Source: Nitrospira sp. (lineage in GTDB: Bacteria > Nitrospirota > Nitrospiria > Nitrospirales > Nitrospiraceae). Taken from it: a DNA stretch of 64,000 nt. The position numbers and the translations under genes were made by a program. The DNA is taken from NCBI GenBank assembly GCA_036984305.1, contig BQWY01000001.1, positions 1 to 64,000 on the forward strand, written 5' to 3'. Each line of letters opens with the position of its first letter. The first letter of the stretch is position 1. Shown here one piece after another: positions 1,476 through 61,126 of this stretch. The notes below the pieces were generated by a model that was not told the origin of the DNA, did no database searches, and worked only from the letters and a program-made list of their open reading frames with translations.

Positions 1476-2603
1476 ATGAAGGTACGCATTTCCAGAGACG
1501 AACTACTGGTGGCGCTTCAGCGCGTCCAGGGCGTGGTCGAAAAGCGCAATACCATGCCGATCCTGTCGAATATCATGCTGGAAGCCAAACAGGACGGGAT
1601 CGAGGTCAGCGCCACCGATCTGGAGATCGGCATGCGGGCTTTGTACAAGGCGACGGTATTGGAATCCGGCACGTTAACGGTTTCCGCGCGCAAGCTGTTC
1701 GAGATCATCAAGGAATTGCGGGATGGGGAGATTGAACTCGGCACCGGCGAGAACAACTGGCTTCACATTCAAGCAAGCAAGAGTCAATTCAAGATTGTCA
1801 GTTTACCTGCGGGAGAGTATCCGGCACTTCCCGCCATCGATAAGGAAGGGTTGACCCCCCTCGCGAGCGCCGGGCTGTTGGAACTGATCCGCAAGACGCT
1901 GTTCGCAGCGGGCGACAATGACGCGCGCTATATTCTCAATGGGTTGCTCGTCACGCTCGTTAGTGGAGAAAAGAAGACAACCCTGCGGCTGGTCGGAACG
2001 GACGGACACCGCTTGGCTGTGGCCGAGCAGGACGTCGGGTCGGCCGGACCGAAAGACGCGCCCCGGGAGATCAAGGCGATCATCCCGAAGAAGGCGGCGC
2101 AGGAAATCCGGCGACTGCTCGAGGAGGGCGGCGATGGAGAACCCCTGATTGGATTCACAAAAAAGCTGATGATCTTTCGAAAGAGCGGGTTACTCCTCAC
2201 CTCGAGCTTGATGGAAGGCAACTACCCGAACTATCAGGGCGTGCTGCCCAAAGAAAGCGACAAGCGCATCATGATTGACCGTCAGGAACTGGAGGGCGCG
2301 TGCCGTCGCGTGGCCGTGTTGTCGCGCGATAAAGCCAATGCGGTGAAGGTCACCTTCTCCAAAGGAAAATTGACCCTCTACGCCAACAACCCGGACTTTG
2401 GAGAAGCGACCGAGGAATTGTCGGCCGAATACAAAGGCGACACCCTCACGACCGGATTCAACGCCCGCTATCTGCTGGACGTCTTTGGAGTCATGGACGG
2501 TCAACAGATTTCGCTTCAGATGGATAATCCGTTAAGCCCGTGCCTCATCCAGGAGCGCGAGAGCCCCGGTTTCAAGTGCGTGGTCATGCCGATCAAGATA
2601 TGA
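1476..2603 (+). CDS. dnaN: DNA polymerase III beta subunit (sliding clamp)
   Basis: The beta clamp encircles DNA and tethers polymerase III and other replication and repair proteins. The start MKVRISRDELLVALQRVQGV followed by the NTMPILSNIML motif is typical of clamp domain 1, and the C-terminus ends in a clamp-like VVMPIKI. The 375-residue length matches three clamp domains. The ATG at 1476 is preceded by GGAGG at about 1462; the frame stays open upstream to 1299, but that part overlaps dnaA and is not clamp-like. Its position directly behind dnaA is the usual bacterial order and suggests co-transcription. The 108 bp to gyrB contain no obvious terminator. Confidence 0.97.
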   Translation: MKVRISRDELLVALQRVQGVVEKRNTMPILSNIMLEAKQDGIEVSATDLEIGMRALYKATVLESGTLTVSARKLFEIIKELRDGEIELGTGENNWLHIQASKSQFKIVSLPAGEYPALPAIDKEGLTPLASAGLLELIRKTLFAAGDNDARYILNGLLVTLVSGEKKTTLRLVGTDGHRLAVAEQDVGSAGPKDAPREIKAIIPKKAAQEIRRLLEEGGDGEPLIGFTKKLMIFRKSGLLLTSSLMEGNYPNYQGVLPKESDKRIMIDRQELEGACRRVAVLSRDKANAVKVTFSKGKLTLYANNPDFGEATEELSAEYKGDTLTTGFNARYLLDVFGVMDGQQISLQMDNPLSPCLIQERESPGFKCVVMPIKI

Positions 2604-2693
2604 CGTCAGCCCTCGACGCGGATAGATTCCTTTCGCTGCGGCTCGAGTTCCACACCCCTCACCTTTCCGGGACATCTGCGCGTCTCGGGATAG

Positions 2694-5183
<2,490 letters not shown>

Positions 5184-10317: not shown

Positions 10318-10737
10318 CTACACAGCCTGGCCGAGCTGCCGTAACATGCCGAGCGCATCGGAAACGCGCCAGTGCTCGATGATTCTCCCATCGACGAACC
10401 GATCAATCTGGAACTGCTTGACGGCGACGCGCTTGCCCGTGGGTGGGATGCCGAAGAGGGATCCTTGGTGGGTGCCGTACATCGTACAGCGGGTCGCCAC
10501 CTTCAGGTCGGTGATGACCTGATCTTCTATCACGAATTTCAGATCGGGGAAGGCCACTCGCAGGAGCGCCACCGTCGCCTTCATGCCCTGCGCCCCTGGC
10601 ATCAGATTGGGAGTGTATGGGTTATGGTTTTGGAAATCGGGATGGATGAGTTCATCGAACACCTCCAGCCGTCCCTGATTCCACCCCTCGTGGAAATACC
10701 GCTGGAGTACGGTCCTATTCGAGTCACATGCCGTCAT
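10318..10737 (-). CDS. SnoaL-like polyketide cyclase-fold protein
   Basis: A 139-residue NTF2-like protein of the SnoaL/ester cyclase group. Features include the N-terminal helix (VLQRYFHEGWNQGRLEVFDEL), HPDFQNHNP, the core AFPDLKFVIEDQVITDLKVATR and the end strand IDRFVDGRIIEHWRVSD, which is the typical DGRI-EHW motif. Substrates in this fold vary widely, so no reaction is assigned. No strong Shine-Dalgarno is visible before ATG 10737. It is divergent from the pirin gene. Confidence 0.75.
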   Translation of the reverse strand: MTACDSNRTVLQRYFHEGWNQGRLEVFDELIHPDFQNHNPYTPNLMPGAQGMKATVALLRVAFPDLKFVIEDQVITDLKVATRCTMYGTHQGSLFGIPPTGKRVAVKQFQIDRFVDGRIIEHWRVSDALGMLRQLGQAV

Positions 10738-10946
10738 GTGGGCGAGTGGAGATGACGTTGGGTCCCGGCTCTACCGGTTGGAAAGTACGTGCTTTGTTCA
10801 GCCTTCGGAGGATAGCATACTTTTTTGGCGGACCAATCAAAGAAGGTGATTCGTGAGCGAGTGTCCGCACGTCTGCTGCTCAAACGGGGCTGGCTGTTCT
10901 TGGTCGCGAGGGACAATCGACAGGACTGGGAAAGCCGCGCAAGGGC

Positions 10947-11064: not shown

Positions 11065-11949
11065 ATGAATCTCGCCACCGAACAGGATAAGGCAGTTCTG
11101 GGTGTCTATCGCACGGGGTCACATCACATGGTGGGCGACGGGTTTCCGGTGCGAAATCTGTTTCCGAGCAACGAGCTGGATCGGGAGCTCAGCCCGTTTC
11201 TCCTTCTTGATTACGCGGGTCCGTTTGAGTTCCCTCCCACGCCCCATCCGCGGGGAGTCGGTGAGCACCCTCATCGTGGCTTCGAGACCGTCACGATTAT
11301 GTATCAGGGTATCCTGACCCACCGCGACTCGGCCGGCAACGGGGGCACGATTGGCCCTGGCGACGTACAATGGATGACGGCGGCCTCGGGCGTGGTCCAT
11401 GAGGAAATGCACGAGCGAGAGTTCGCCAGGCGCGGCGGTACGCTGGAAGCCGTACAGCTTTGGGTCAACCTTCCACACGCGTTAAAAATGTCTGCGCCCC
11501 GCTACCAGACCTTGCTGAACGGCGACATCCCGACGGTCACATTGAAAGGAGGCGCGGGACGACTTCGCGTAATCGCCGGGGAATACGGCGGTGTGAAGGG
11601 TCCGGCTCAATCCCATACTCCGGTGCATGTGTACGATCTGCGGTTGGTCGCCGACCGACCGACGGAATTGCCGCTCATACCCGGCTTCAACAGCGCCGTC
11701 GTGCTTCTCCAGGGTGAAGCCACAATCAATAGCACGCACGTGCTGCACGAGGCGGAGCTGGCTCTGTTGGCCAAGACGGGGGAGCGCATCGTCATCGAGG
11801 CTCGGCGCGACAGCACGCTTCTCATCCTGAGCGGGAAGCCGATCGACGAACCGATTGCCCGCTATGGGCCGTTCGTCATGACGACGCGAGCCGAGCTGGT
11901 GGAGGCGGCCCAGGACTATCAGGCCGGCAAGATGGGGCATTTGACGTGA
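11065..11949 (+). CDS. Pirin family protein
   Basis: A 294-residue bicupin pirin. The metal-binding cupin signature is clear: GEHPHRGFETVTIMYQG, HRDSAGN and GVVHEEMHE supply the His/Glu ligands, and the C-terminal cupin has the YDLRLVAD strand. Pirins range from quercetin-dioxygenase-like enzymes to redox-sensing regulators, so the exact role is open. ATG 11065 has GAGAGGGGG just upstream. The stop overlaps the GTG start of the next gene by 4 bp, indicating translational coupling with the DsbA-fold protein. Confidence 0.9.
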   Translation: MNLATEQDKAVLGVYRTGSHHMVGDGFPVRNLFPSNELDRELSPFLLLDYAGPFEFPPTPHPRGVGEHPHRGFETVTIMYQGILTHRDSAGNGGTIGPGDVQWMTAASGVVHEEMHEREFARRGGTLEAVQLWVNLPHALKMSAPRYQTLLNGDIPTVTLKGGAGRLRVIAGEYGGVKGPAQSHTPVHVYDLRLVADRPTELPLIPGFNSAVVLLQGEATINSTHVLHEAELALLAKTGERIVIEARRDSTLLILSGKPIDEPIARYGPFVMTTRAELVEAAQDYQAGKMGHLT

Positions 11950-12605
11950 GCCACACGGTCACGATCGACGTGTATTCCGATGTCGTTTGCCCATGGTGCT
12001 ACGTGGGCAAACGACGGTTGGAACGCGCGCTGAGTCAAGTCAAAGGGGACCTGAACCCTCATGTCACCTGGCGACCCTTCCAGCTGAACCCGACCATGCC
12101 GCTCGAGGGGTTGGACCGCATCGACTATCTGGAGGCTAAATTTGGGAGCCGCGAGGCCTTCGCGAGCGTAGAGGAACGCGTTGTGAGCGCCGGAGAAATG
12201 GAGGGAATTCGCTTTGCCTTTGGAAAAATCAAACGGACGCCGAATACCTTTCTCGCGCATCGACTCATCTGGCATGCCCGCCAACTTGGGCGGGAGGACG
12301 CCATGGTGGAATCACTGTTCAAAGGTTATTTCGAGGAAGGCGCGGAGATCAGCAGCATCGCGAGCTTACTGCCGCTGGCGGACCGTGCCGGCGTCCGCGC
12401 GGACACGGTGCTCTCGGGCGGGGACGGTATCGTCGAGGTCACAGCGGAGCAGGCGGTCGGACACCGGCTTGGCATTCGCGGCGTGCCCTACTTCCTCATC
12501 GATGACGCGTATGTGCTTTCCGGAGCGCAACCTCCGGAGCGGCTGGTTGCGGCGCTGAGAGCCGCGCAGTCCGGCGCCGCTCAGAAAGTCTCGCCCTCAA
12601 AATAG
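11946..12605 (+). CDS. DsbA-family oxidoreductase, FrnE type
   Basis: A 219-residue thioredoxin-fold protein with the DsbA insertion. It begins with a beta strand (VTIDVYSDVVCPWCYVGKRR) carrying a CPWC active site at residues 15-18 and ends with a cis-proline loop in HRLGIRGVPYFLIDD. These are the marks of FrnE/HCCA-isomerase-like cytoplasmic members; there is no signal peptide. The GTG start overlaps the pirin stop (GTGA). Likely roles are thiol-disulfide or glutathione-linked chemistry; the coupling to pirin suggests a redox-stress pair, which is inference. Confidence 0.88.
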   Translation: MSHTVTIDVYSDVVCPWCYVGKRRLERALSQVKGDLNPHVTWRPFQLNPTMPLEGLDRIDYLEAKFGSREAFASVEERVVSAGEMEGIRFAFGKIKRTPNTFLAHRLIWHARQLGREDAMVESLFKGYFEEGAEISSIASLLPLADRAGVRADTVLSGGDGIVEVTAEQAVGHRLGIRGVPYFLIDDAYVLSGAQPPERLVAALRAAQSGAAQKVSPSK

Positions 12606-51533: not shown

Positions 51534-51675
51534 AGAGTCTCAGGGGGCGTGTCGCAAGCGCCTTCGCGCGCAGTGTCGGAAGGGCTTTCTTTCTGTGGCA
51601 ACCCTGGCCTACCATACCAAGGTAGCAGATCCGCCGTCCTGGGTCGGAAGCGCGGACCGGAAGCAAAGAGGCGCG

Positions 51676-52680
51676 ATGATGGCAGAGAAGAAGCCTAAGA
51701 AGACGCGCGGAGCCGGAGGCGCACGGCGACGCCGCAAACCGGCCGGTGCGTCGGTCGGACTCGCGCCCTCAGAATTGCAAGCCGCGTCCCCTTCTGGCGA
51801 GGCGGCCGACCTGCACCGTGAAGTGGAACAGAACGGTGGCAAGGTGTTGACCGTGTATCGCGAGCCCTATGGAGGACGATGGCTCTTGTTCGCCGGCCTG
51901 CCGATCGACCTCGTGGCCGCCACCCCGTATCAGCGAAACCTGTCGGATACCCACGTGCGCAAGTTGGAGGCGGTGATCGGAAAACTGGGACGTTTTCTCG
52001 ATCCCATTATCGCGGTACGAGCCGGGCGGCATGCGGAGGGTGGCGTGAAGTATTGGACCCCCAACGGCCATCATCGCCTGTCGGCCATGAAAACGCTCGG
52101 CGCCAAGAGTATCACGGCGATCCTCGTTCCGGAGGAAAGCGCGGCCTATCAGATCTTAGCTCTCAATACGGAAAAGGCGCATAACCTCCGAGAGAAATCC
52201 CTGGAGGTCATTCGGATGTACAAGGAACTGGCCCGACTGGACGAGGCCAGCGAAGAGACCTATGCGTTGGAGTTCGAGGAGCCCTCGTTGATTACAATGG
52301 GGCTCTGCTACGAGGAACGCCCGCGCTTCAGCGGGGGGGCCTATCATCCTGTGCTGAAGCGGGTGGAGACGTTTTGTAAAGAATCGATGCACCGCGCGAT
52401 CAAGCAGCGCGAGCAGCGAGCGCGCACGGTCATGGAATTGGATGATCTCGTTGTCAAGCAGGTTGAGGCACTGAAGGCAAAGGGATTGACGAGCCCTTAC
52501 CTCAAGAGCTTCGTCGTAGCGAGGGTCAACCCGATCCGGTTCCGTCCCAAGGACGCGCCGCCGCCGAATTTCGACGAGACGTTCGACAAAATGATGAAAT
52601 CGGCCGAGAAATTCGACGCCGGCAAGATCAAAGTGGAGGATGTGGCCAGATCCGGCGGTGCGCCGGATGAAGGTGACTAA
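51676..52680 (+). CDS. ParB N-terminal-domain protein, not chromosomal ParB
   Basis: A 334-residue protein. After a basic, low-complexity N-terminus (KKPKKTRGAGGARRRRKP) comes a ParB/Srx domain: PYQRNLSDTHVRKLEAVIGK, DPIIAVRAG, TPNGHHRLSAMKTLG (the NG-H-R-L nucleotide loop) and then TEKAHNLREKSLEVIRMY. The C-terminal part is helical without a recognised DNA-binding domain. No ParA partner lies nearby. Such proteins are reported as nucleases, CTPases or kinases in other systems; the activity here is undetermined. I chose ATG 51676 after AGAGGCGCG; an ATG follows at 51679. Confidence 0.8.
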   Translation: MMAEKKPKKTRGAGGARRRRKPAGASVGLAPSELQAASPSGEAADLHREVEQNGGKVLTVYREPYGGRWLLFAGLPIDLVAATPYQRNLSDTHVRKLEAVIGKLGRFLDPIIAVRAGRHAEGGVKYWTPNGHHRLSAMKTLGAKSITAILVPEESAAYQILALNTEKAHNLREKSLEVIRMYKELARLDEASEETYALEFEEPSLITMGLCYEERPRFSGGAYHPVLKRVETFCKESMHRAIKQREQRARTVMELDDLVVKQVEALKAKGLTSPYLKSFVVARVNPIRFRPKDAPPPNFDETFDKMMKSAEKFDAGKIKVEDVARSGGAPDEGD

Positions 52681-52739: not shown

Positions 52740-53237
52740 ATGCTAGTACGAGATGTCATGTCGACCGGGGTGGTGACGGCTCAACGGCACGAAACGGTGC
52801 ACGCGACGGTGGTCAAAATGCTCAGTCGGCATTGCGGGGCAATCCCCGTGGTGGAGCAGGACAACATGTTGGTAGGAATGGTCACACTGCGAGATGTGCT
52901 GCTGCCGCTGTACCCCAATTACGGGGACTATATCCATGACAATGTTCACAGTCGGGATTTCGTCGGAATGGAAGAGGGCTATCCGGAGGTGCTGGGCAAG
53001 AAGGTCGACGATGTCATGAGTCGTCATCCCTTGACCGTGACGCCGCAGACCCCGGCGCTCGAAGCAGCGTCATATATGGGGCTAAAGAATCTGCGTCGGA
53101 TTCCGGTCATAGAGAAGGGTCGCTTGGTCGGGATGGTCAGCATCGGGGACATCAACAGAGGGCTGTTTTTTATGTCGGCCCATATGGCCCATGGAAAGGT
53201 GGGAATGAGCGACCTCGCAGGTTCGACAAGGCGTTAA
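52740..53237 (+). CDS. CBS-domain pair protein
   Basis: A 165-residue protein made of two CBS domains that probably bind adenosyl nucleotides. Motifs: MLVRDVMSTGVVTAQRHETV, GAIPVVEQDNMLVGMVTLRD in the first, and VDDVMSRHPLTVTPQTP, RRIPVIEKGRLVGMVSIGD in the second. A longer linker (PNYGDYIHDNVHSRDFVGME) separates them. It is a stand-alone regulator candidate; the partner is unknown. GAAAGGAG precedes ATG 52740. Confidence 0.9.
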   Translation: MLVRDVMSTGVVTAQRHETVHATVVKMLSRHCGAIPVVEQDNMLVGMVTLRDVLLPLYPNYGDYIHDNVHSRDFVGMEEGYPEVLGKKVDDVMSRHPLTVTPQTPALEAASYMGLKNLRRIPVIEKGRLVGMVSIGDINRGLFFMSAHMAHGKVGMSDLAGSTRR

Positions 53238-53285: not shown

Positions 53286-53627
53286 ATGGCATTGGCCGAT
53301 AATAAATGCGTTCCCTGCCGTGGCGGCGTGCCGCCATTGCCCGCAGACAAAGCAGAAGCTCTTCTGAAGGAATTGGGTCGCGGATGGACGTTGAACGGAG
53401 CCGGGCACCTCGAACGGTTGTATACGTTCAAGGATTTTGCTCAAGCTCTCGCATTCGTCAATAAGGTCGGGGGGGTGGCCGAATCCGAGGGGCATCACCC
53501 GGATTTGTATTTGGCGTGGGGGAAGTGCAAGGTCGAGATTTGGACCCACAAGATCAATGGGCTCACGGAAAGCGATTTTTATATGGCGGCCAAAGCAGAT
53601 CGAGAGTTCGAATCGTTTCGGGGGTAG
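53286..53627 (+). CDS. Pterin-4a-carbinolamine dehydratase
   Basis: A 113-residue PCD/DCoH protein that recycles tetrahydropterin cofactor. The active-site signature is complete: SEGHHPDLYLAWGKCKVEIWTH ending in KINGLTESDF (written here in parts: HHPDLYL, KVEIWTHKINGLTESDF). The N-terminal KCVPCRGGVPPL is the usual start. No phenylalanine hydroxylase is seen, as is common. It lies 11 bp before the radical SAM gene, so the two may be co-transcribed by chance of order or for a reason not visible. Confidence 0.92.
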   Translation: MALADNKCVPCRGGVPPLPADKAEALLKELGRGWTLNGAGHLERLYTFKDFAQALAFVNKVGGVAESEGHHPDLYLAWGKCKVEIWTHKINGLTESDFYMAAKADREFESFRG

Positions 53628-53638
53628 GAACCGGACTC

Positions 53639-55525
53639 GTGACACAGACTGTTCATACACCGGCGCCGATCGCGCTGGTGAACATGCCGTTCAGCTCGTC
53701 GAAGTATCCATCGATCCAGCTCGGCACGCTCTCGGCCCTGCTCAAATCACGCGGCATCGGCGTGGACTGCCATCATTTGAACGTGCGGTTCGCGCATAAG
53801 ATCGGTCCGCCCCTGTACGAGCGGATCTGCGAAAAACGTGCGCTCTTCGGTGAATGGCTTTTCTCTTACCTGCTGTTTCGGGACAACCCCAAGCGCGTCG
53901 AATATCCGCGCGTCTTCAAACCGGTCTTTGAACAGCTTGCACAGGAAAGCGGGCAGCCAATGGGCTATTTTGAAGCCATGGCAACGAGGACCGCGCCGGA
54001 GTTCCTGACCTGGGCGATGGCCGCGATCGACTGGGGCCAGTACAAAATGGTGGGCTTCACCTCGACGTTCGATCAAAACGTCGCCAGTTTGACGATGGCC
54101 AAGCTCATCAAGGACCTCTACCCGGAGGTCCGGATCGTGTTCGGCGGAGCGAACTATGACGGCGAGATGGGCCTCGAATACTTCCGCGCGTTCTCGTTCA
54201 TCGACCATGTGGTGGTGGGCGAAGGGGAGCATGTGGTGCTCGCGCTAGTTGATCGAATCCTTGCCGGAGCCACCGACGGGTTCCCTGCGGGCGTGACGTA
54301 TCGGACGGCGAATGCCTTGAACAACGGCATCGGCTTCGAACCGAACCGGGCACTCTTCACAGAATTTGCCGAGACCGGCCCGCCCGATTATGACGATTAT
54401 TACCACCTGCTGGCGGAACTCGGGACGTCTGGACCGTCGGGTTTGGATCGCGTGCTGCTCTACGAGGGCTCGCGGGGATGCTGGTGGGGGGAAAAGCATC
54501 ACTGTACGTTCTGCGGATTGAACGCGCAGAGCATGAAATTTCGGGCGAAATCGCCGGAACAGGTGACGCGCGAGATCGGGCATCTGGCCAGCCGCTACGA
54601 CACGACGCGTTTTCGACTGGTCGACAACATCATCGAAATGAAATACGTCGATCAGTTGTTCGGCAAGTTCGCCGAGTCGCGTTGCGATCTCGACGTGTTC
54701 ATTGAAACCAAAAGCAATCTGCACAAACAGCAAATTCGTACGCTGGCCGCGGGTGGAGTGAAATGCATGCAACCCGGCCTGGAGAGCCTGAGCGTGAGCC
54801 AGCTTCGAGCGATGGACAAGGGCGTGACGCCGCTTCAGAACATCCAATGCTTGAAGTGGAGTTACTATTACAAGGTGCTGGTATCCTGGAACATTCTTCT
54901 GGGGTTTCCCGGCGAAACTAACGAAGACTATCGACGGCAGATCGATCTGATTCCCACGCTTTTTCACTTGCAGCCGCCGGAGGGGGCGGGCAAATTTTGG
55001 CTCGAACGATTCAGTCCCTATTTTACGAGGCCGGAGCAATACGGCCTCCGCATCACCGGACCTGGAATGGCCTACCAGTACGTCTATGATGCGCGTCACG
55101 TCGATCTGCACAAGATCGCCTACGACTTCGAATATGAACTCGACAATTGGCCGGTCGACCCGCATCTGTTCCAGGAGTTGGTGTCGATGATCGACGAATG
55201 GAAACAGCGATACGCCTCCGAGGATCGGCCCTTTTTGTATTTCTCCAAAGCTCCGACCTACGTGACGGTGTACGATGGGCGGATCGCGCAGCGTCCGACG
55301 AGATACCGCTTCGACGGACCGGCGGCGTACGCGATCGAAGCGTGCAACGAGCAGCCCCGTTCAGCGGAGCACATCAAGGCAGGTTGGCAGACGGCGCACC
55401 CGAACGAACCGCTCGATGCGGGCGCAGTCGCAGCCGTACTCGCAGACCTCACGACCAAGCGAATCTTGTACGAAGAGCGCGGGAAGCATTTCACGGTCGC
55501 CATTCCCGAACACGCCTATTATTGA
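53639..55525 (+). CDS. RiPP-maturation-type B12-binding radical SAM protein
   Basis: A 628-residue enzyme of the 'ribosomal peptide maturation radical SAM protein 1' type. Residues 10-210 form a cobalamin-binding-like domain (IALVNMPFSSSKYPSIQLG, VGFTSTFDQN, VFGGANYDGEMG). The radical SAM cluster motif is unusual, C281-x7-C289-x2-C292 in SRGCWWGEKHHCTFCGLN, which is diagnostic of this family. The C-terminal 75 residues (YRFDGPAAYAIEACNEQPRS onward) resemble a PqqD/RRE-like peptide-recognition module. Expected chemistry is methylation or another radical modification of a peptide. GTG 53639 has GGGTAGGA upstream. No precursor peptide is evident nearby. Confidence 0.85.
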   Translation: MTQTVHTPAPIALVNMPFSSSKYPSIQLGTLSALLKSRGIGVDCHHLNVRFAHKIGPPLYERICEKRALFGEWLFSYLLFRDNPKRVEYPRVFKPVFEQLAQESGQPMGYFEAMATRTAPEFLTWAMAAIDWGQYKMVGFTSTFDQNVASLTMAKLIKDLYPEVRIVFGGANYDGEMGLEYFRAFSFIDHVVVGEGEHVVLALVDRILAGATDGFPAGVTYRTANALNNGIGFEPNRALFTEFAETGPPDYDDYYHLLAELGTSGPSGLDRVLLYEGSRGCWWGEKHHCTFCGLNAQSMKFRAKSPEQVTREIGHLASRYDTTRFRLVDNIIEMKYVDQLFGKFAESRCDLDVFIETKSNLHKQQIRTLAAGGVKCMQPGLESLSVSQLRAMDKGVTPLQNIQCLKWSYYYKVLVSWNILLGFPGETNEDYRRQIDLIPTLFHLQPPEGAGKFWLERFSPYFTRPEQYGLRITGPGMAYQYVYDARHVDLHKIAYDFEYELDNWPVDPHLFQELVSMIDEWKQRYASEDRPFLYFSKAPTYVTVYDGRIAQRPTRYRFDGPAAYAIEACNEQPRSAEHIKAGWQTAHPNEPLDAGAVAAVLADLTTKRILYEERGKHFTVAIPEHAYY

Positions 55526-55823
55526 TCCGCCTGTGCTAGACAGTGCTGGAGATACATTCCCGCGTTATACGTGCATTTGGAGCAGTTCCCATCTTCCGAC
55601 GAAGATGGCCTAGACACTTCCTTACCCCTCGGCTACACTCCGGGCGTTGGCCCATTATTCATGGCGTTACGTGACGAACCGGCGAGACGCTAAGCGGGTC
55701 GAGCACGCGGAGCCCCGAGAGGCGAGGCTACGGGTCGTAGCAGCGTATCGGCGGTTGCAGTAGTAAGGGTCATGAATGATGTGGGCTAGAGGGGTAGCCA
55801 CTCCCCGGTCTCCCGTTTCGATC

Positions 55824-56582
55824 ATGAAAGTCCTGACTGCACTGGGCAGGTGGGGCCTGACGCTTCTCGTTGCGCTGTGCCTTCTTCTGCCTGACCGATT
55901 GTTGGCCCTCGCGCCCGAGGACTACCAAGATCGCGGCAACCGTTCCGAGGGCATCAAACCGAAGCTGGTCAGCGGCTACGATATCGAACTCCTCTCGGTC
56001 ATGGCCGATTTTCGCGAGGCCGTGACCTCCCTGCCCAAGACCCTGCGGGTTCGGTTCTTCCTGAAGGATCCGGTGCCCGTCCATCTCACGATCAGGGAGC
56101 AGCGCTACGAACACTATTACTGGCTGGATCATGTGCTTCCGTCTCCGCCGTGGCAGACGGGATTCAACGAGTTTAGTTGGCCGACCGGCGATGTGCTGCA
56201 GCGCATCGATGTCGCCTTCCCGGTCGAGAACTTGGGGGTCGTGGTCCGGCTCAACAGCGCTCGACCGTCGGTCGTCGAATCCGTGGCACCGGCTATTCTC
56301 TACCACTCCACGCCTCCGCCCACCGTGTTGGCGTACCTGTTCACGATGAAGCCCGGCCAAGATGCGCGCATCAAGTGTGAGGTCTATCGGGAGGGAACGG
56401 ACAAGCCGGTCTGGACCACGCACGTCAGCATGGCGGTTGGAGATCAACCGATGTCGGTCCGATGGGATGCCAAGTCGGCTCCTGCAGGAGCGTACCGGAT
56501 GCTGGTGACGGGGTATTTCCTGGACAACAACCAGCGGTTCGCCCAGACCATTCGGTTTTACCATCAACCGGAAGTGAAGTAG
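55824..56582 (+). CDS. Secreted protein of unknown function, first in TIR/protease cluster
   Basis: A 252-residue protein beginning MKVLTALGRWGLTLLVALCLLLPDRLLA, a long signal peptide (given here as its features). The mature part is beta-rich with YDIELLSVMADFREAV, VHLTIREQRYEHYYW and a closing VSMAVGDQPMSVRWD and YRMLVTGYFLDNNQRFAQTI, in the style of an immunoglobulin-like or carbohydrate-binding beta sandwich. No family is recognised. ATG 55824 was chosen for the signal peptide; the frame opens at 55776. It is 38 bp upstream of the TIR gene. Confidence 0.7.
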   Translation: MKVLTALGRWGLTLLVALCLLLPDRLLALAPEDYQDRGNRSEGIKPKLVSGYDIELLSVMADFREAVTSLPKTLRVRFFLKDPVPVHLTIREQRYEHYYWLDHVLPSPPWQTGFNEFSWPTGDVLQRIDVAFPVENLGVVVRLNSARPSVVESVAPAILYHSTPPPTVLAYLFTMKPGQDARIKCEVYREGTDKPVWTTHVSMAVGDQPMSVRWDAKSAPAGAYRMLVTGYFLDNNQRFAQTIRFYHQPEVK

Positions 56583-56620
56583 TCGCACCAGCGAATGGTT
56601 GCTGCACGACTGAAACAATC

Positions 56621-58216
56621 GTGAGCCAGATCTTTATCAGCTATGCCAACGAAGACCGGAACTGGGTCGAGTCGTTCGCTCGGACTTTGGAGAAGCAAGG
56701 CTGGTCGGTCTGGTGGGATCGACACACTCCCACCGGCCAAGTTTACGACAAGGTCATTTGGGACGCCCTCCAGGCGGCAACGTGTGTGGTTGTCGTGTGG
56801 TCCGGTCATTCGATCGATAGTGAATGGGTCAAAGAGGAAGCGAGTGACGCCAAGAAGCGGAACATTCTCCTGCCGGTACGCATTGACGAAGCCCGCCCCC
56901 CGTTTGGCTTCAGCCGCAGGCAGACGCAGTCTCTAGTCGGTTGGCAAGACGGTCTCCCCCACCGAGGCTACGATCAGCTCCTGACCGACATCGCCTCTAT
57001 GCTTCAAGCGCCTGTACCGCTTCCCTCCACTGTGCACGATACGCCAACGCCGGTTCTCTCCCCGTCCGGCAGCGCCACGCTCGCTCGTATCCATGGCTAC
57101 CTCTGGCTGATTGTGCCGACACTGCTCCTGTTGGTGGCGGTGGTCACGCTGATGGCCTGGCGCGTGCCGACGCATGTGCAGCTCGATCTAACGGTGAACC
57201 GCCTTGAGTTCACGGTAGGACGGATCGACGGGGGGTCCATGAGTCTCTTGGGACCGATCGAGTACCAAACCCTGACGATCAGGGAGTTTTCGCGTATTCA
57301 GACCAACCCCAAAATACTTGAGATTGCCGACCCCCGCTTGTATGACTTCGACAGGGATACTTACCCTGCCTCGGCGTGGCACCAGGTGGCCACGGCTGGC
57401 CGGGGAGTGGAATTCGTGGCCGGAGAGGCATCGCGACATCCGAGTATGACGCTCCGAGGGGAATCGACTTCACGTGATACGTCGACCACACCCGCAGGCC
57501 GACTCGATTCGCTCGCGATTGAGGACGGGGCGCGAGTGACACTTGAGCGGGCACGCGGTTCTGGAGGGTCGCTATCTCTGGACATCGGAGCCGAACGACC
57601 GAGGGCCCTTCTGACGCCCGCCCCCATGAGTCGGTTCGCGACGCGGCACACGACGCTCGAAGGGTCGACGCTTCCGGGATTTGCTCAGCCGGATGGTCAG
57701 ACGTATCGCTTGGTCGTACAACCAAGTCAGCCTATAGTTGAAGTGGATGGCGGCGCTCACGCGCTCGCATTGACCGTACGACCGATATCGAATGGCGATC
57801 ATTTCAAGGTGAATCAGGCGATCCCTATTACGGCGATCGACTTCTCTCAGCAGAGTTCGACCGGTAGTCGCATGACCAGCCTCGCCGATGGTGTCGAAGC
57901 GGTGCTCCGGTATCCACAGATTCCTGACTTGCCGGGCGTCAAATTTGCTGCCCCGGACTTCCTTGGTCTCGAGGAATTAGAGCGTTTTGTCATCAAGGCG
58001 TTGGAATGGTCCCCGACCGGTGACGGCATCCGTTTGACATTGGATGGGGTGGCCGGGCACGTGGCGACACGATCAGGCGACTTCCAACGGGACCATCGCC
58101 TTACACAATTCGAGACGTTACGGCACAACCCGAGCTTAATGACGGTGTTGGCCATCCTTGGCTGGATCGTGCCGACTCTCATTGGCGCGAGGAAGCTGTA
58201 TAAGGAACTACGGTGA
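56621..58216 (+). CDS. Membrane protein with N-terminal TIR domain
   Basis: A 531-residue protein. Residues 1-130 are a TIR domain: VSQIFISYANEDRNWVESFA, GWSVWWDRHTPTGQ (BB loop), VVVVWSGHSIDSEWVKEEAS and NILLPVRID. The glutamates at 72-73 sit where TIR NADases have their catalytic residue. A transmembrane helix (about 161-180) and a second near 510-527 flank an approximately 330-residue extracytoplasmic region, Thr/Ser/Gly-rich and beta-like, of unknown type. The GTG start at 56621 lies behind a weak ribosome site. Its stop overlaps the next start (GTGA), so TIR and protease-FGE are coupled. Confidence 0.85.
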   Translation: MSQIFISYANEDRNWVESFARTLEKQGWSVWWDRHTPTGQVYDKVIWDALQAATCVVVVWSGHSIDSEWVKEEASDAKKRNILLPVRIDEARPPFGFSRRQTQSLVGWQDGLPHRGYDQLLTDIASMLQAPVPLPSTVHDTPTPVLSPSGSATLARIHGYLWLIVPTLLLLVAVVTLMAWRVPTHVQLDLTVNRLEFTVGRIDGGSMSLLGPIEYQTLTIREFSRIQTNPKILEIADPRLYDFDRDTYPASAWHQVATAGRGVEFVAGEASRHPSMTLRGESTSRDTSTTPAGRLDSLAIEDGARVTLERARGSGGSLSLDIGAERPRALLTPAPMSRFATRHTTLEGSTLPGFAQPDGQTYRLVVQPSQPIVEVDGGAHALALTVRPISNGDHFKVNQAIPITAIDFSQQSSTGSRMTSLADGVEAVLRYPQIPDLPGVKFAAPDFLGLEELERFVIKALEWSPTGDGIRLTLDGVAGHVATRSGDFQRDHRLTQFETLRHNPSLMTVLAILGWIVPTLIGARKLYKELR

Positions 58217-59526
58217 GAGCAAACTTCGGACAGAAGTACTCGAAGAAGGTCATTACAAGGGCTGTTGCCCTTTTGGTCTTGCTGGCTTGTCTGGAAGAAA
58301 GAGACCGTTGCCTGGCTATCGTTGGGACACCGGATCTTGAGCACATGAAGTCCGGTGTGGTTAGGATCACGTCCAAGGCTGAAGGTCAGCAACCCAGGGT
58401 CGGCACGGGCTTTGTCGTGCGTGTGGATGGCGAGGCAGCCTATATCGTCACGGCCGCGCACGTGGTCGAAGGTGATTCAAGACCGCGAGTGACTTTTTAC
58501 TCGGAGCCGCAGCAGGTGTATACCGCTCAGGTTATCGGAATCGAATCGGATCGCGGTAAGGGGGTAGCGGTTATCCGTGCATCGCCCCCCCTTCCCCGCG
58601 GCGTGGTGGCCTTATCCCTCTCTTCGGGCGTCACGGTGTCGGGTGGCGAAGAGGTGTCTTTTATTGGATTCCCCCGCACACTACCGCCATGGACGGTTTC
58701 GATTGGGAGTTTGAGTGGGTGGAAGGGACCGGATCTCGCGTTTCAAGCCTTGGTTGAAGAAGGCCATTCTGGCGGACCTCTCATATGGAATGGAGAGGTC
58801 ATCGGCGTGGTCAATGAGACTCGCGAGCGGTTCGGCTATGCGGTGCCCGCCTCTATTCTCGTCGTTGCGTTGACTGGGTGGCGGATCGAGCCGAAACCGA
58901 CTGAGAGCATGACGCCACGGGCACGGGTCGGTCCAGACGGAGTGTCGATGGTTCGAGTCGATGCCGGTCGAATTCCGACGAAGCTCGTTGAGGTGTACGG
59001 CGGAGGGCGCGTAGAGGAAATTCCAGGCTCCGCACGATTTGTGTCCGTGCCGCAAGTTTTCTACATTGATGATCGACTCGTGACCAAGGCACGATTTCTG
59101 GAGTTTTTCGAAGCAACCACGGGGGGGCTCTTGCCCGCGACAGCGACCCAGGATAGCAGCGTCTTGCTCAATCCAGAGGAGCCCGTGGAAGATGTCACAT
59201 GGCACGACGCCATGGCCTATTGCCAATGGGCTCGCAAGCGCCTTCCAACGGAAGATGAGTGGGAGAAGGCGGCTCATGATACAAAGGGCCGGATTCTGCA
59301 CGATCGGGTTTCTGAGTGGACAGCGACTCCATACCAGGAGCCACCGCTAACAGGGGACTCTCGACCTGGGTCCACCCGTAAGGTCGTTCGGGGAACTCTT
59401 CGCGCCTTCAAGATCCAGCATGTCGAGGGAGCTGTCGACTATCAAGTGCGGATGTTCGGCGAGGCCTACCAAGGAGAATCGGGTATTGGCTTTCGCTGTG
59501 CGAAAGATGCACCGGGTTCCCAGTAA
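58213..59526 (+). CDS. Trypsin-like (S1C) protease fused to FGE-fold domain
   Basis: A 437-residue protein with an N-terminal hydrophobic segment (about 13-27). Residues 40-230 are a trypsin-like domain: GVVRITSKAEGQQPRVGTGF, histidine at 83 in VTAAHVVEG, and serine at 186 in EEGHSGGPL. The aspartate expected near residue 115 is absent: the position reads RGKGVAV where its paralogue has RDNGLAA. Residues about 245-432 form an FGE fold with MVRVDAGRIP, FYIDDRLVTKARFLEFF, AYCQWARKRLPTEDEWEKAA and a closing IGFRCAKD, without the two catalytic cysteines. Its start overlaps the TIR gene by 4 bp. Confidence 0.88.
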   Translation: MRANFGQKYSKKVITRAVALLVLLACLEERDRCLAIVGTPDLEHMKSGVVRITSKAEGQQPRVGTGFVVRVDGEAAYIVTAAHVVEGDSRPRVTFYSEPQQVYTAQVIGIESDRGKGVAVIRASPPLPRGVVALSLSSGVTVSGGEEVSFIGFPRTLPPWTVSIGSLSGWKGPDLAFQALVEEGHSGGPLIWNGEVIGVVNETRERFGYAVPASILVVALTGWRIEPKPTESMTPRARVGPDGVSMVRVDAGRIPTKLVEVYGGGRVEEIPGSARFVSVPQVFYIDDRLVTKARFLEFFEATTGGLLPATATQDSSVLLNPEEPVEDVTWHDAMAYCQWARKRLPTEDEWEKAAHDTKGRILHDRVSEWTATPYQEPPLTGDSRPGSTRKVVRGTLRAFKIQHVEGAVDYQVRMFGEAYQGESGIGFRCAKDAPGSQ

Positions 59527-59554
59527 GGACCTCGCGTGCACAAGGGGGAAGTAG

Positions 59555-60622
59555 ATGAGGATGAGGCGCCATACCATGCTGGGGATTGGGGTAGCCATGC
59601 TTGCCATGTGGATGTTCCCCGCCCTTCTACGGGCCGACACCTTCGAGGATCTCAAGAAGGGCGTGGTGAAAATCACCGCCAAGGCAGAAGGGCAGCAGCC
59701 CAAGGTCGGTACGGGGTTCATCGTGTCCGCCGAGGAAGGGGCGGCCTATATCGTGACGGCTGCACATGTGATCGGTGGTGACCCCCAGCCCGAGGTCGAG
59801 TTCTTTACCAAGGCCCATCAAACGTTCAAGGCGAAGGTCATCGCCAGCGAAGGGGGCCGCGACAACGGGCTGGCCGCGCTGCTCGTGCAGATGAAAATGC
59901 CTCAGGGCACCGTTGCCTTGGGTTTAGACAAAACGACGCAGTTGTCGGGGGGTGAGACGGTCTCGTCAATCGGGTTCCCGCGGCGTCGTGAAGCATGGGC
60001 GGTCACCACTGGATCGATTAGCGGGATCAAAAACCGGCAGATCACCGTGCAAGCCCCGATCGAGGAAGGCAACTCGGGCGGGCCGTTGTTGCTGAACGGT
60101 CGTGTCGTGGGGGTCATCACGCAAAGCACCGGCTCGTTCGGTCAGGCGGAGCCGACCCTGGCCCTGCAATTGCTGCTGCATTCCTGGCGAGTACCGGTTA
60201 CAGAAGAGCGCAGTTCTCACGTCCGTACCAGCGAAACTGCCGAAGACCGGGAGCTTCATAATATAGAAGACGAACTAGCCGGTCGAGAGAAGAGGGGCAC
60301 ACCACGCGTGGCGTCAAAGGCCGCAATCAATGTGACGGGGACTTGGATGGTGCCTGGTGAGCCGGGGTTCCAGTATGTCTTCAAGCAACATGGCCGGCAG
60401 GTCACAATGACGCAAACGTTCACCAATCCCGCTTTGGGATCGGAACCTCGGGTCTATGCCGAAGGCGAGATCGACGGGCGGCACCTCGAGATGGTGTATA
60501 TCAACGCATCCGGCATGGGTTCGATTGAATTGGACGTCCAGGATGATCGTACGACAATGCAAGGGGTATTCAATCTGGGGTTGGTGCCGCTCAACATCAA
60601 GCTGGTGAAGCAATCGGAGTGA
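59555..60622 (+). CDS. Trypsin-like (S1C) protease, secreted
   Basis: A 355-residue paralogue of the preceding protease domain with a signal or anchor (about residues 8-27). The triad is complete: His71 in VTAAHVIGG, Asp103 in GGRDNGLAAL and Ser174 in EEGNSGGPL. The front part is strongly similar to its neighbour (DTFEDLKKGVVKITAKAEGQ against DLEHMKSGVVRITSKAEGQ), so the pair arose by tandem duplication. Residues about 260-355 form a beta-rich domain replacing the FGE part. ATG 59555 follows AGTAGATG without a strong site. It is the last gene of the unit. Confidence 0.88.
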   Translation: MRMRRHTMLGIGVAMLAMWMFPALLRADTFEDLKKGVVKITAKAEGQQPKVGTGFIVSAEEGAAYIVTAAHVIGGDPQPEVEFFTKAHQTFKAKVIASEGGRDNGLAALLVQMKMPQGTVALGLDKTTQLSGGETVSSIGFPRRREAWAVTTGSISGIKNRQITVQAPIEEGNSGGPLLLNGRVVGVITQSTGSFGQAEPTLALQLLLHSWRVPVTEERSSHVRTSETAEDRELHNIEDELAGREKRGTPRVASKAAINVTGTWMVPGEPGFQYVFKQHGRQVTMTQTFTNPALGSEPRVYAEGEIDGRHLEMVYINASGMGSIELDVQDDRTTMQGVFNLGLVPLNIKLVKQSE

Positions 60623-60694: not shown

Positions 60695-61027
60695 TTACAT
60701 CGAGAGCTTTTCGGTCACGTTCCGCATCTGCACGCCGTGGACGAGTGAAGCCCCCCCTCGGATGGCACATGCGACGTGCACGGCCTCCGTCATCTCCTCC
60801 GTATTGGAGCCCTTCTCCAAACAGGCCTGTGTGTAGGCATCGATGCAGTAGGGGCACTGCACGGCATGGGCGACGCCAAGCGCTATAAGGGCCTTTTCGC
60901 GCTCCGTCAGCGCGCCTTCGGCGAAGACTGCGCTGTAATAGCTCATGAATTTGTCCCAAAGTTCCTTGTTCCCCTTGCCCATATCGCTGAAATGACCCAG
61001 ATCTTTGGGGTGATAGTAGGTGTCCAT
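60695..61027 (-). CDS. AhpD/CMD family protein, arsenosugar-associated peroxidase-like
   Basis: A 110-residue carboxymuconolactone decarboxylase-family protein. Features: MDTYYHPKDLGHFSDMGKGN at the start, EREKALIALGVAHAVQCPYC and the CxxC-containing CPYCIDAYTQACLEKG, the proton-relay site of AhpD-like peroxidases. The sequence style matches proteins listed with arsenosugar biosynthesis operons. No ArsM-type gene is nearby. ATG 61027 was preferred over the GTG at 61039, four codons upstream. Confidence 0.88.
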   Translation of the reverse strand: MDTYYHPKDLGHFSDMGKGNKELWDKFMSYYSAVFAEGALTEREKALIALGVAHAVQCPYCIDAYTQACLEKGSNTEEMTEAVHVACAIRGGASLVHGVQMRNVTEKLSM

Positions 61028-61126
61028 GGAAGCTCTCACAGATGGTTAAGGTTGTGGCGGAGGTTGAGGATTCACGCAATCCAGCGAACAGGATTCTTCC
61101 CCGTGTCTTCAACCGTGGCCGGTCCG

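Follow-up and report, generated by a model that had tools for sequence, protein, structure and literature searches.

An orphan B12-dependent radical-SAM C-methyltransferase conserved in the Nitrospirales and its possible link to nitrite oxidation

Radical-SAM (rSAM) enzymes of the TIGR03975 kind have the decoration of antibiotic-like peptides as their normal job. One such enzyme is encoded at 53639..55525 on the forward strand of the window, the 64,000-nucleotide stretch of Nitrospira sp. DNA analysed here, with no gene for a precursor peptide at its side. The question raised by this locus is what, in this organism, the enzyme modifies.

The ORF begins with GTG at 53639, stops at 55525 and encodes 628 aa. 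Its product matched the TIGR03975 profile (RiPP maturation radical SAM C-methyltransferase, rSAM_ocin_1) over the full length of the model, positions 1-606 of 606, scoring 592.5 bits (cut-off 281.85); in the same profile search the remaining cobalamin and rSAM families scored below 46 bits. The MgmA model, TIGR04014, gave 37.3 bits against a cut-off of 360, which places the protein outside the MgmA sequence family. The radical-SAM core spans residues 278-435 (54470..54943, forward strand; PF04055, 43.1 bits, cut-off 29.5). A putative B12-binding (Rossmann) domain was assigned to residues 130-203 (54026..54247, forward strand), where PF02310 matched at E=5.5e-6 with 26.7 bits, under its gathering score of 32.1. 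This assignment is backed by fold comparison, since the top Foldseek matches in the PDB to the full-length model, which is of moderate confidence (pLDDT 69), were all cobalamin rSAM enzymes: TsrM, TokK, MgmA, OxsB and CysS. Among solved structures TokK was the best sequence match, and TokK and TsrM were both fold matches to this pLDDT 69 model, but TokK methylates a carbapenem precursor and TsrM tryptophan, both of them small molecules.

The [4Fe-4S] motif, read from the sequence, has the spacing CX7CX2C (CWWGEKHHCTFC, 54479..54514, forward strand), and its cysteines C281, C289 and C292 were invariant in 43 orthologues. This is an unconventional motif, reported for the polytheonamide and bottromycin peptide C-methylases; the polytheonamide enzyme PoyC, a peptide C-beta methylase with CX7CX2C, carries out cobalamin-dependent methylation of a peptide sp3 carbon (PMC5682303). 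By its published description, PoyC thus resembles the Nitrospirales enzyme in its motif and, presumably, in cobalamin-dependent peptide C-methylation, but PoyC sits in a RiPP cluster and the Nitrospirales enzyme does not.

At the C-terminus, residues 533-620 (55235..55498, forward strand) are predicted by AlphaFold, Foldseek and weak PqqD Pfam matches to form an RRE/PqqD-like winged-helix domain. When the C-terminal 109 residues were folded alone with AlphaFold, a confident model was obtained (pLDDT 87.6), with a predicted bbb-aaa topology plus wing, the beta3-alpha3 winged-helix fold. The best TM-score among the Foldseek matches listed was to TbiB1, a lasso-peptide RRE, in complex with its leader (5v1u_B; TMt 0.67, 87 columns, E 0.04); there were partial matches to many other winged-helix proteins, and none of the matches passes E 0.001. 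PqqD (PF05402) was the Pfam family matched by most members, although weakly (8 of 39 orthologue C-termini, best E 0.003), and the C-terminus of the window's own rSAM protein gave no match to it. A domain of the RRE type would suit a short leader peptide no less than it would a large protein. The first-pass annotation had taken the motif and the PqqD-like end as marks of a peptide-modifying enzyme, and the TIGR03975 match, the RRE-like fold and the weak PqqD matches agree with this assignment.

A precursor was sought in a neighbourhood set of 81 loci, made up of the window and 80 other Nitrospirota loci with orthologues at 67-78% identity. Clustering of ORFs of 20-130 aa from about -870 to +2170 relative to the rSAM start revealed no conserved ORF beyond the known genes in these loci, and a precursor hidden beside the enzyme was rejected on this ground. 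Neither a transporter nor a protease was found alongside the Nitrospirales rSAM gene. The first-pass annotation had seen no precursor ORF near the window gene, and had proposed that the neighbourhoods of orthologues be compared, since a conserved precursor there would speak against its reading; the comparison found none beside the window gene or beside any orthologue. A leader search of the whole genome, also proposed there, detected no Nif11 leader. The NHLP leader model was likewise silent, but this search is uncontrolled, as the control genomes gave no match either. A pattern search of the same genome for the QSAG-type leader described below was negative as well.

The genes that do adjoin the enzyme are conserved. 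A pterin-4a-carbinolamine dehydratase (PCD) gene (53286..53627, forward strand; PF01329, 103.9 bits, gathering score 26) has its stop 11 bp upstream of the rSAM start, and the two are likely co-transcribed. PCD adjoins rSAM in 77 of the 81 loci; the earlier remark that such a dehydratase is an unusual partner therefore holds for RiPP clusters but not for the Nitrospirales lineage. Upstream of PCD are a gene for a CBS-domain protein (52740..53237, forward strand; PF00571), a neighbour in 21 of the 81 loci and in part of the lineage, and one provisionally labelled ParB-like, with no Pfam match above cut-off (51595..52680, forward strand), which is syntenic in 38 of the 81. The usual order is ParB-like, sometimes CBS, PCD, rSAM and then a convergent CMD gene. 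The PCD-rSAM and rSAM-CMD gaps are mostly shorter than 50 bp, and shorter than 250 bp in most of the others.

The distribution of the enzyme was examined in 296 Nitrospirota genomes, 109 of which were assigned to the Nitrospirales by our count. It was present as a single copy in about 97 of these 109, with 58-78% identity between orthologues across the order, and relatives outside the order were sporadic. N. moscoviensis and N. defluvii are among the carriers. In the tree, the Nitrospirales clade stands apart from the sampled RiPP-linked relatives (SH-aLRT 100), with long outgroup branches; orthologues outside Nitrospirota were sampled via plasmids only, and the wider family tree is thin. The Nitrospirales rSAM gene is a mostly vertically inherited core gene and not a stray RiPP cluster. 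The protein has the features of TIGR03975 RiPP maturases, namely the full profile match, a probable B12-binding domain with the rSAM core, the CX7CX2C motif and the RRE-like C-terminus. It differs from them in being encoded by a single-copy core gene on a branch of its own, without precursor, transporter or protease, and with PCD, modABC or nxrAB as neighbours.

RiPP-linked relatives were found within the Nitrospirales (G210, G282), in further members of the phylum (G161, G192, G197) and beyond it. Precursors or candidates adjoin several of them and include QSAG-leader peptides (L148), a 73-aa candidate (L151), a pheganomycin-family precursor (L183) and Nif11 peptides (L185, L188). L148 (G210:C13), a TIGR03975 locus of the RiPP type, contains a protease-like gene; its three short ORFs (10531-10872, 11494-11814 and 11729-12133) have the leader M[RK][LI]PxQ[SA]AG in common. 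This leader occurs three times in G210, only in its RiPP cluster, and not once in 16 other Nitrospirales genomes. At another locus, L150 (G192:C63), two proteins of 399 and 459 aa (178-1377 and 2497-3876) share the identical end CTCQSVGRGRTYYISYWYPN and adjoin a TIGR03975 enzyme and other rSAM genes; here a core peptide is possibly fused to big carriers.

These relatives bear on the first alternative to be considered, that the Nitrospirales enzyme does serve RiPP maturation, with a precursor gene at some other place in the genome and a leader that its RRE-like domain binds in trans. Both the TIGR03975 membership and the domain itself are what such an enzyme would show, and relatives in the same order do sit in typical RiPP loci with precursors, as at L148 and L151. 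It is nevertheless at odds with the want of a Nif11 or QSAG-type leader in the genome (that of NHLP being uncontrolled), with neighbourhoods in which no small conserved ORF adjoins any orthologue and neither transporter nor protease is near, and with vertical inheritance as a core gene, which is unusual for a RiPP cluster. We consider a distant precursor a serious contender, although an unlikely one. The first-pass annotation had also allowed for a substrate that is a larger protein or is encoded far away, and the evidence favours this.

Outside the PCD context, rSAM genes were found at about four destinations, two of which are molybdenum or nitrite-oxidation loci. In G006 and G023, which belong to two genera, the order on a single strand is nxrA-nxrB-rSAM-p109-p128; other Nitrospira have nxrA-nxrB-p109-p128 with no rSAM gene between, and G004 shows the same nxr-rSAM arrangement up to the contig end. 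The link to nxrAB may go back to one event shared by related genera. Each of the two linked loci has a terminator-like hairpin in the stretch that separates nxrB from rSAM. At the other such destination, the rSAM gene stands at the head of a molybdate-uptake operon, in the order cyclophilin-rSAM-XRE/PBP regulator-ModA-porin-ModA-ModB-ModC. This arrangement was seen in G019, G020, G011, G035 and L112, representing at least four genera; in the stretch of G011 that was examined, a cyclophilin gave no match. In G044, the PCD-rSAM pair is intact and nxrB is 4 kb away. The non-PCD contexts of family f2 and of genus g16 (L116/L029) have other, unrelated genes as neighbours and no molybdenum link. By a rough binomial estimate, in which the category was chosen after the data had been seen, the chance that two of four relocations fall at such loci is 0.0001-0.002. 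Members of the PCD family are reported to act in molybdenum-cofactor (Moco) metabolism (PMC3223725); taken together with this, the nxr, mod and G044 contexts have molybdenum and nitrite oxidation as their common theme.

Two small proteins of 109 and 128 aa are encoded 3' of nxrB in L162 (5484-6275) and have no Pfam match. Small proteins of the p109/p128 type are conserved at many Nitrospirales nxr loci.

Our best reading, to which we give a probability of about 0.4, is that the rSAM C-methyltransferase modifies a protein substrate within the molybdenum-dependent nitrite-oxidation machinery. The more specific proposal, that a B12 rSAM enzyme of RiPP origin, now with a housekeeping role, C-methylates nitrite oxidoreductase (NXR) itself in the Nitrospirales, is more tentative. 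Counting against a tie to NXR are the hairpin and the perhaps single origin of the nxrAB link, the f2 and g16 contexts, the fit of the RRE-like domain to a leader peptide and, as described below, the genomes that keep NXR or PCD without the enzyme. The tie to NXR is suggested by gene context and by analogy with Mmp10 and MgmA, whose target for C-methylation is the catalytic subunit of methyl-coenzyme M reductase (MCR). Only some genera have MgmA next to the MCR operon, others lack it, and its phenotypes are small (PMC11796369); loss of Mmp10 affects MCR stability and growth (PMC7581889). The Nitrospirales enzyme is similarly conserved across a metabolic guild and has the MgmA structure among its top fold matches; it differs in that its sequence falls far under the cut-off of the MgmA model and in that NXR is here a putative target.

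On our best reading, the Nitrospirales gene has left the RiPP setting and become a core gene. The enzyme would work in the cytoplasm, using a 5'-deoxyadenosyl radical and a methyl group from methylcobalamin to C-methylate an unactivated carbon of a ribosomal polypeptide product, and would hold this substrate with its C-terminal RRE-like domain. NxrA or NxrB would be the first candidate target. NxrA starts with a Tat-like SRRQFLK sequence, and modification in the cytoplasm ahead of Tat export is therefore plausible. No residue of NxrA or NxrB was found that cleanly separates genomes with the enzyme from those without it. Among the papers searched, none ties Nitrospira, NXR and a radical-SAM maturase together, the single joint match being a study of lake viruses, and TIGR03975 is named in only two.

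The enzyme is not universal in the order. In genus g6 the rSAM gene has been lost repeatedly with PCD kept; that this is gene loss is indicated by a decayed rSAM remnant in L167 (7762-7935, matching residues 148-206), located between PCD and an FGE-domain gene. In family f4, PCD is found near rnpA/yidC/trmE. NXR is present without the enzyme in G213, a single-contig genome, and in G057, G205, G210 and G294; the enzyme, and any modification it makes, is therefore dispensable for NXR. Two genomes of family f4, G039 and G045, lack the enzyme and have no recognisable NXR either, which speaks for the NXR reading. That absence of NXR tracks absence of the enzyme was first suggested and then dropped. 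Many apparent NXR absences in draft genomes were fragments at contig ends, and since missing NXR was largely due to assembly breaks, we make no claim that the two are correlated inside families f1 and f3.

The retention of NXR where the enzyme is dispensed with fits a second alternative, namely that another cytoplasmic or exported protein is methylated, perhaps one that serves translation or electron transfer, with the nxr and mod contexts being incidental. The ancestral PCD locus, which holds no molybdenum enzyme, is in keeping with this, as are the f2 copies near a cytochrome c or a prolipoprotein diacylglyceryl transferase gene. Two independent moves, one to nxrAB and one to modABC, would however be improbable by chance, and we regard a target outside the nitrite-oxidation machinery as rather improbable. 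Least probable, and in our view quite unlikely, is a pterin or Moco substrate with the adjacent dehydratase as partner and no polypeptide involved, for although PCD adjoins rSAM in nearly all loci, its family has the reported Moco role and the molybdate operon is linked, the RRE-like domain and CX7CX2C fit peptide methylases, PCD and rSAM are apart in several genera, and PCD outlasts rSAM loss.

Nitrospira NXR drives the second nitrification step worldwide and, in comammox organisms, nitrification as a whole. Were NXR indeed the target, it would be, to our knowledge, the first molybdenum enzyme of the nitrogen cycle with a C-methylation of this kind. Radical C-methylation that tunes or stabilises NXR would then parallel the catalytic-site methylation of MCR, nitrite oxidation would gain a B12 requirement, and a RiPP-type maturase would have been recruited as a core protein-modifying enzyme.

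In the window itself, the downstream neighbour has been displaced. The CMD gene, whose product is an arsenosugar-biosynthesis-associated peroxidase-like protein (60695..61039, reverse strand; TIGR04169, 193.9 bits, cut-off 120), is conserved beside rSAM in 71 of the 81 loci and is usually directly convergent with it, but here about 5 kb of inserted DUF, TIR, FGE and trypsin genes separate the two. The inserted block (55776-60622) holds genes for an unknown protein of 268 aa, a TIR-domain protein, one protein that combines trypsin and FGE-sulfatase parts, and another of the trypsin-like type. Similar blocks occur in L054, L086 and L177, where they are located upstream of rSAM or of PCD.
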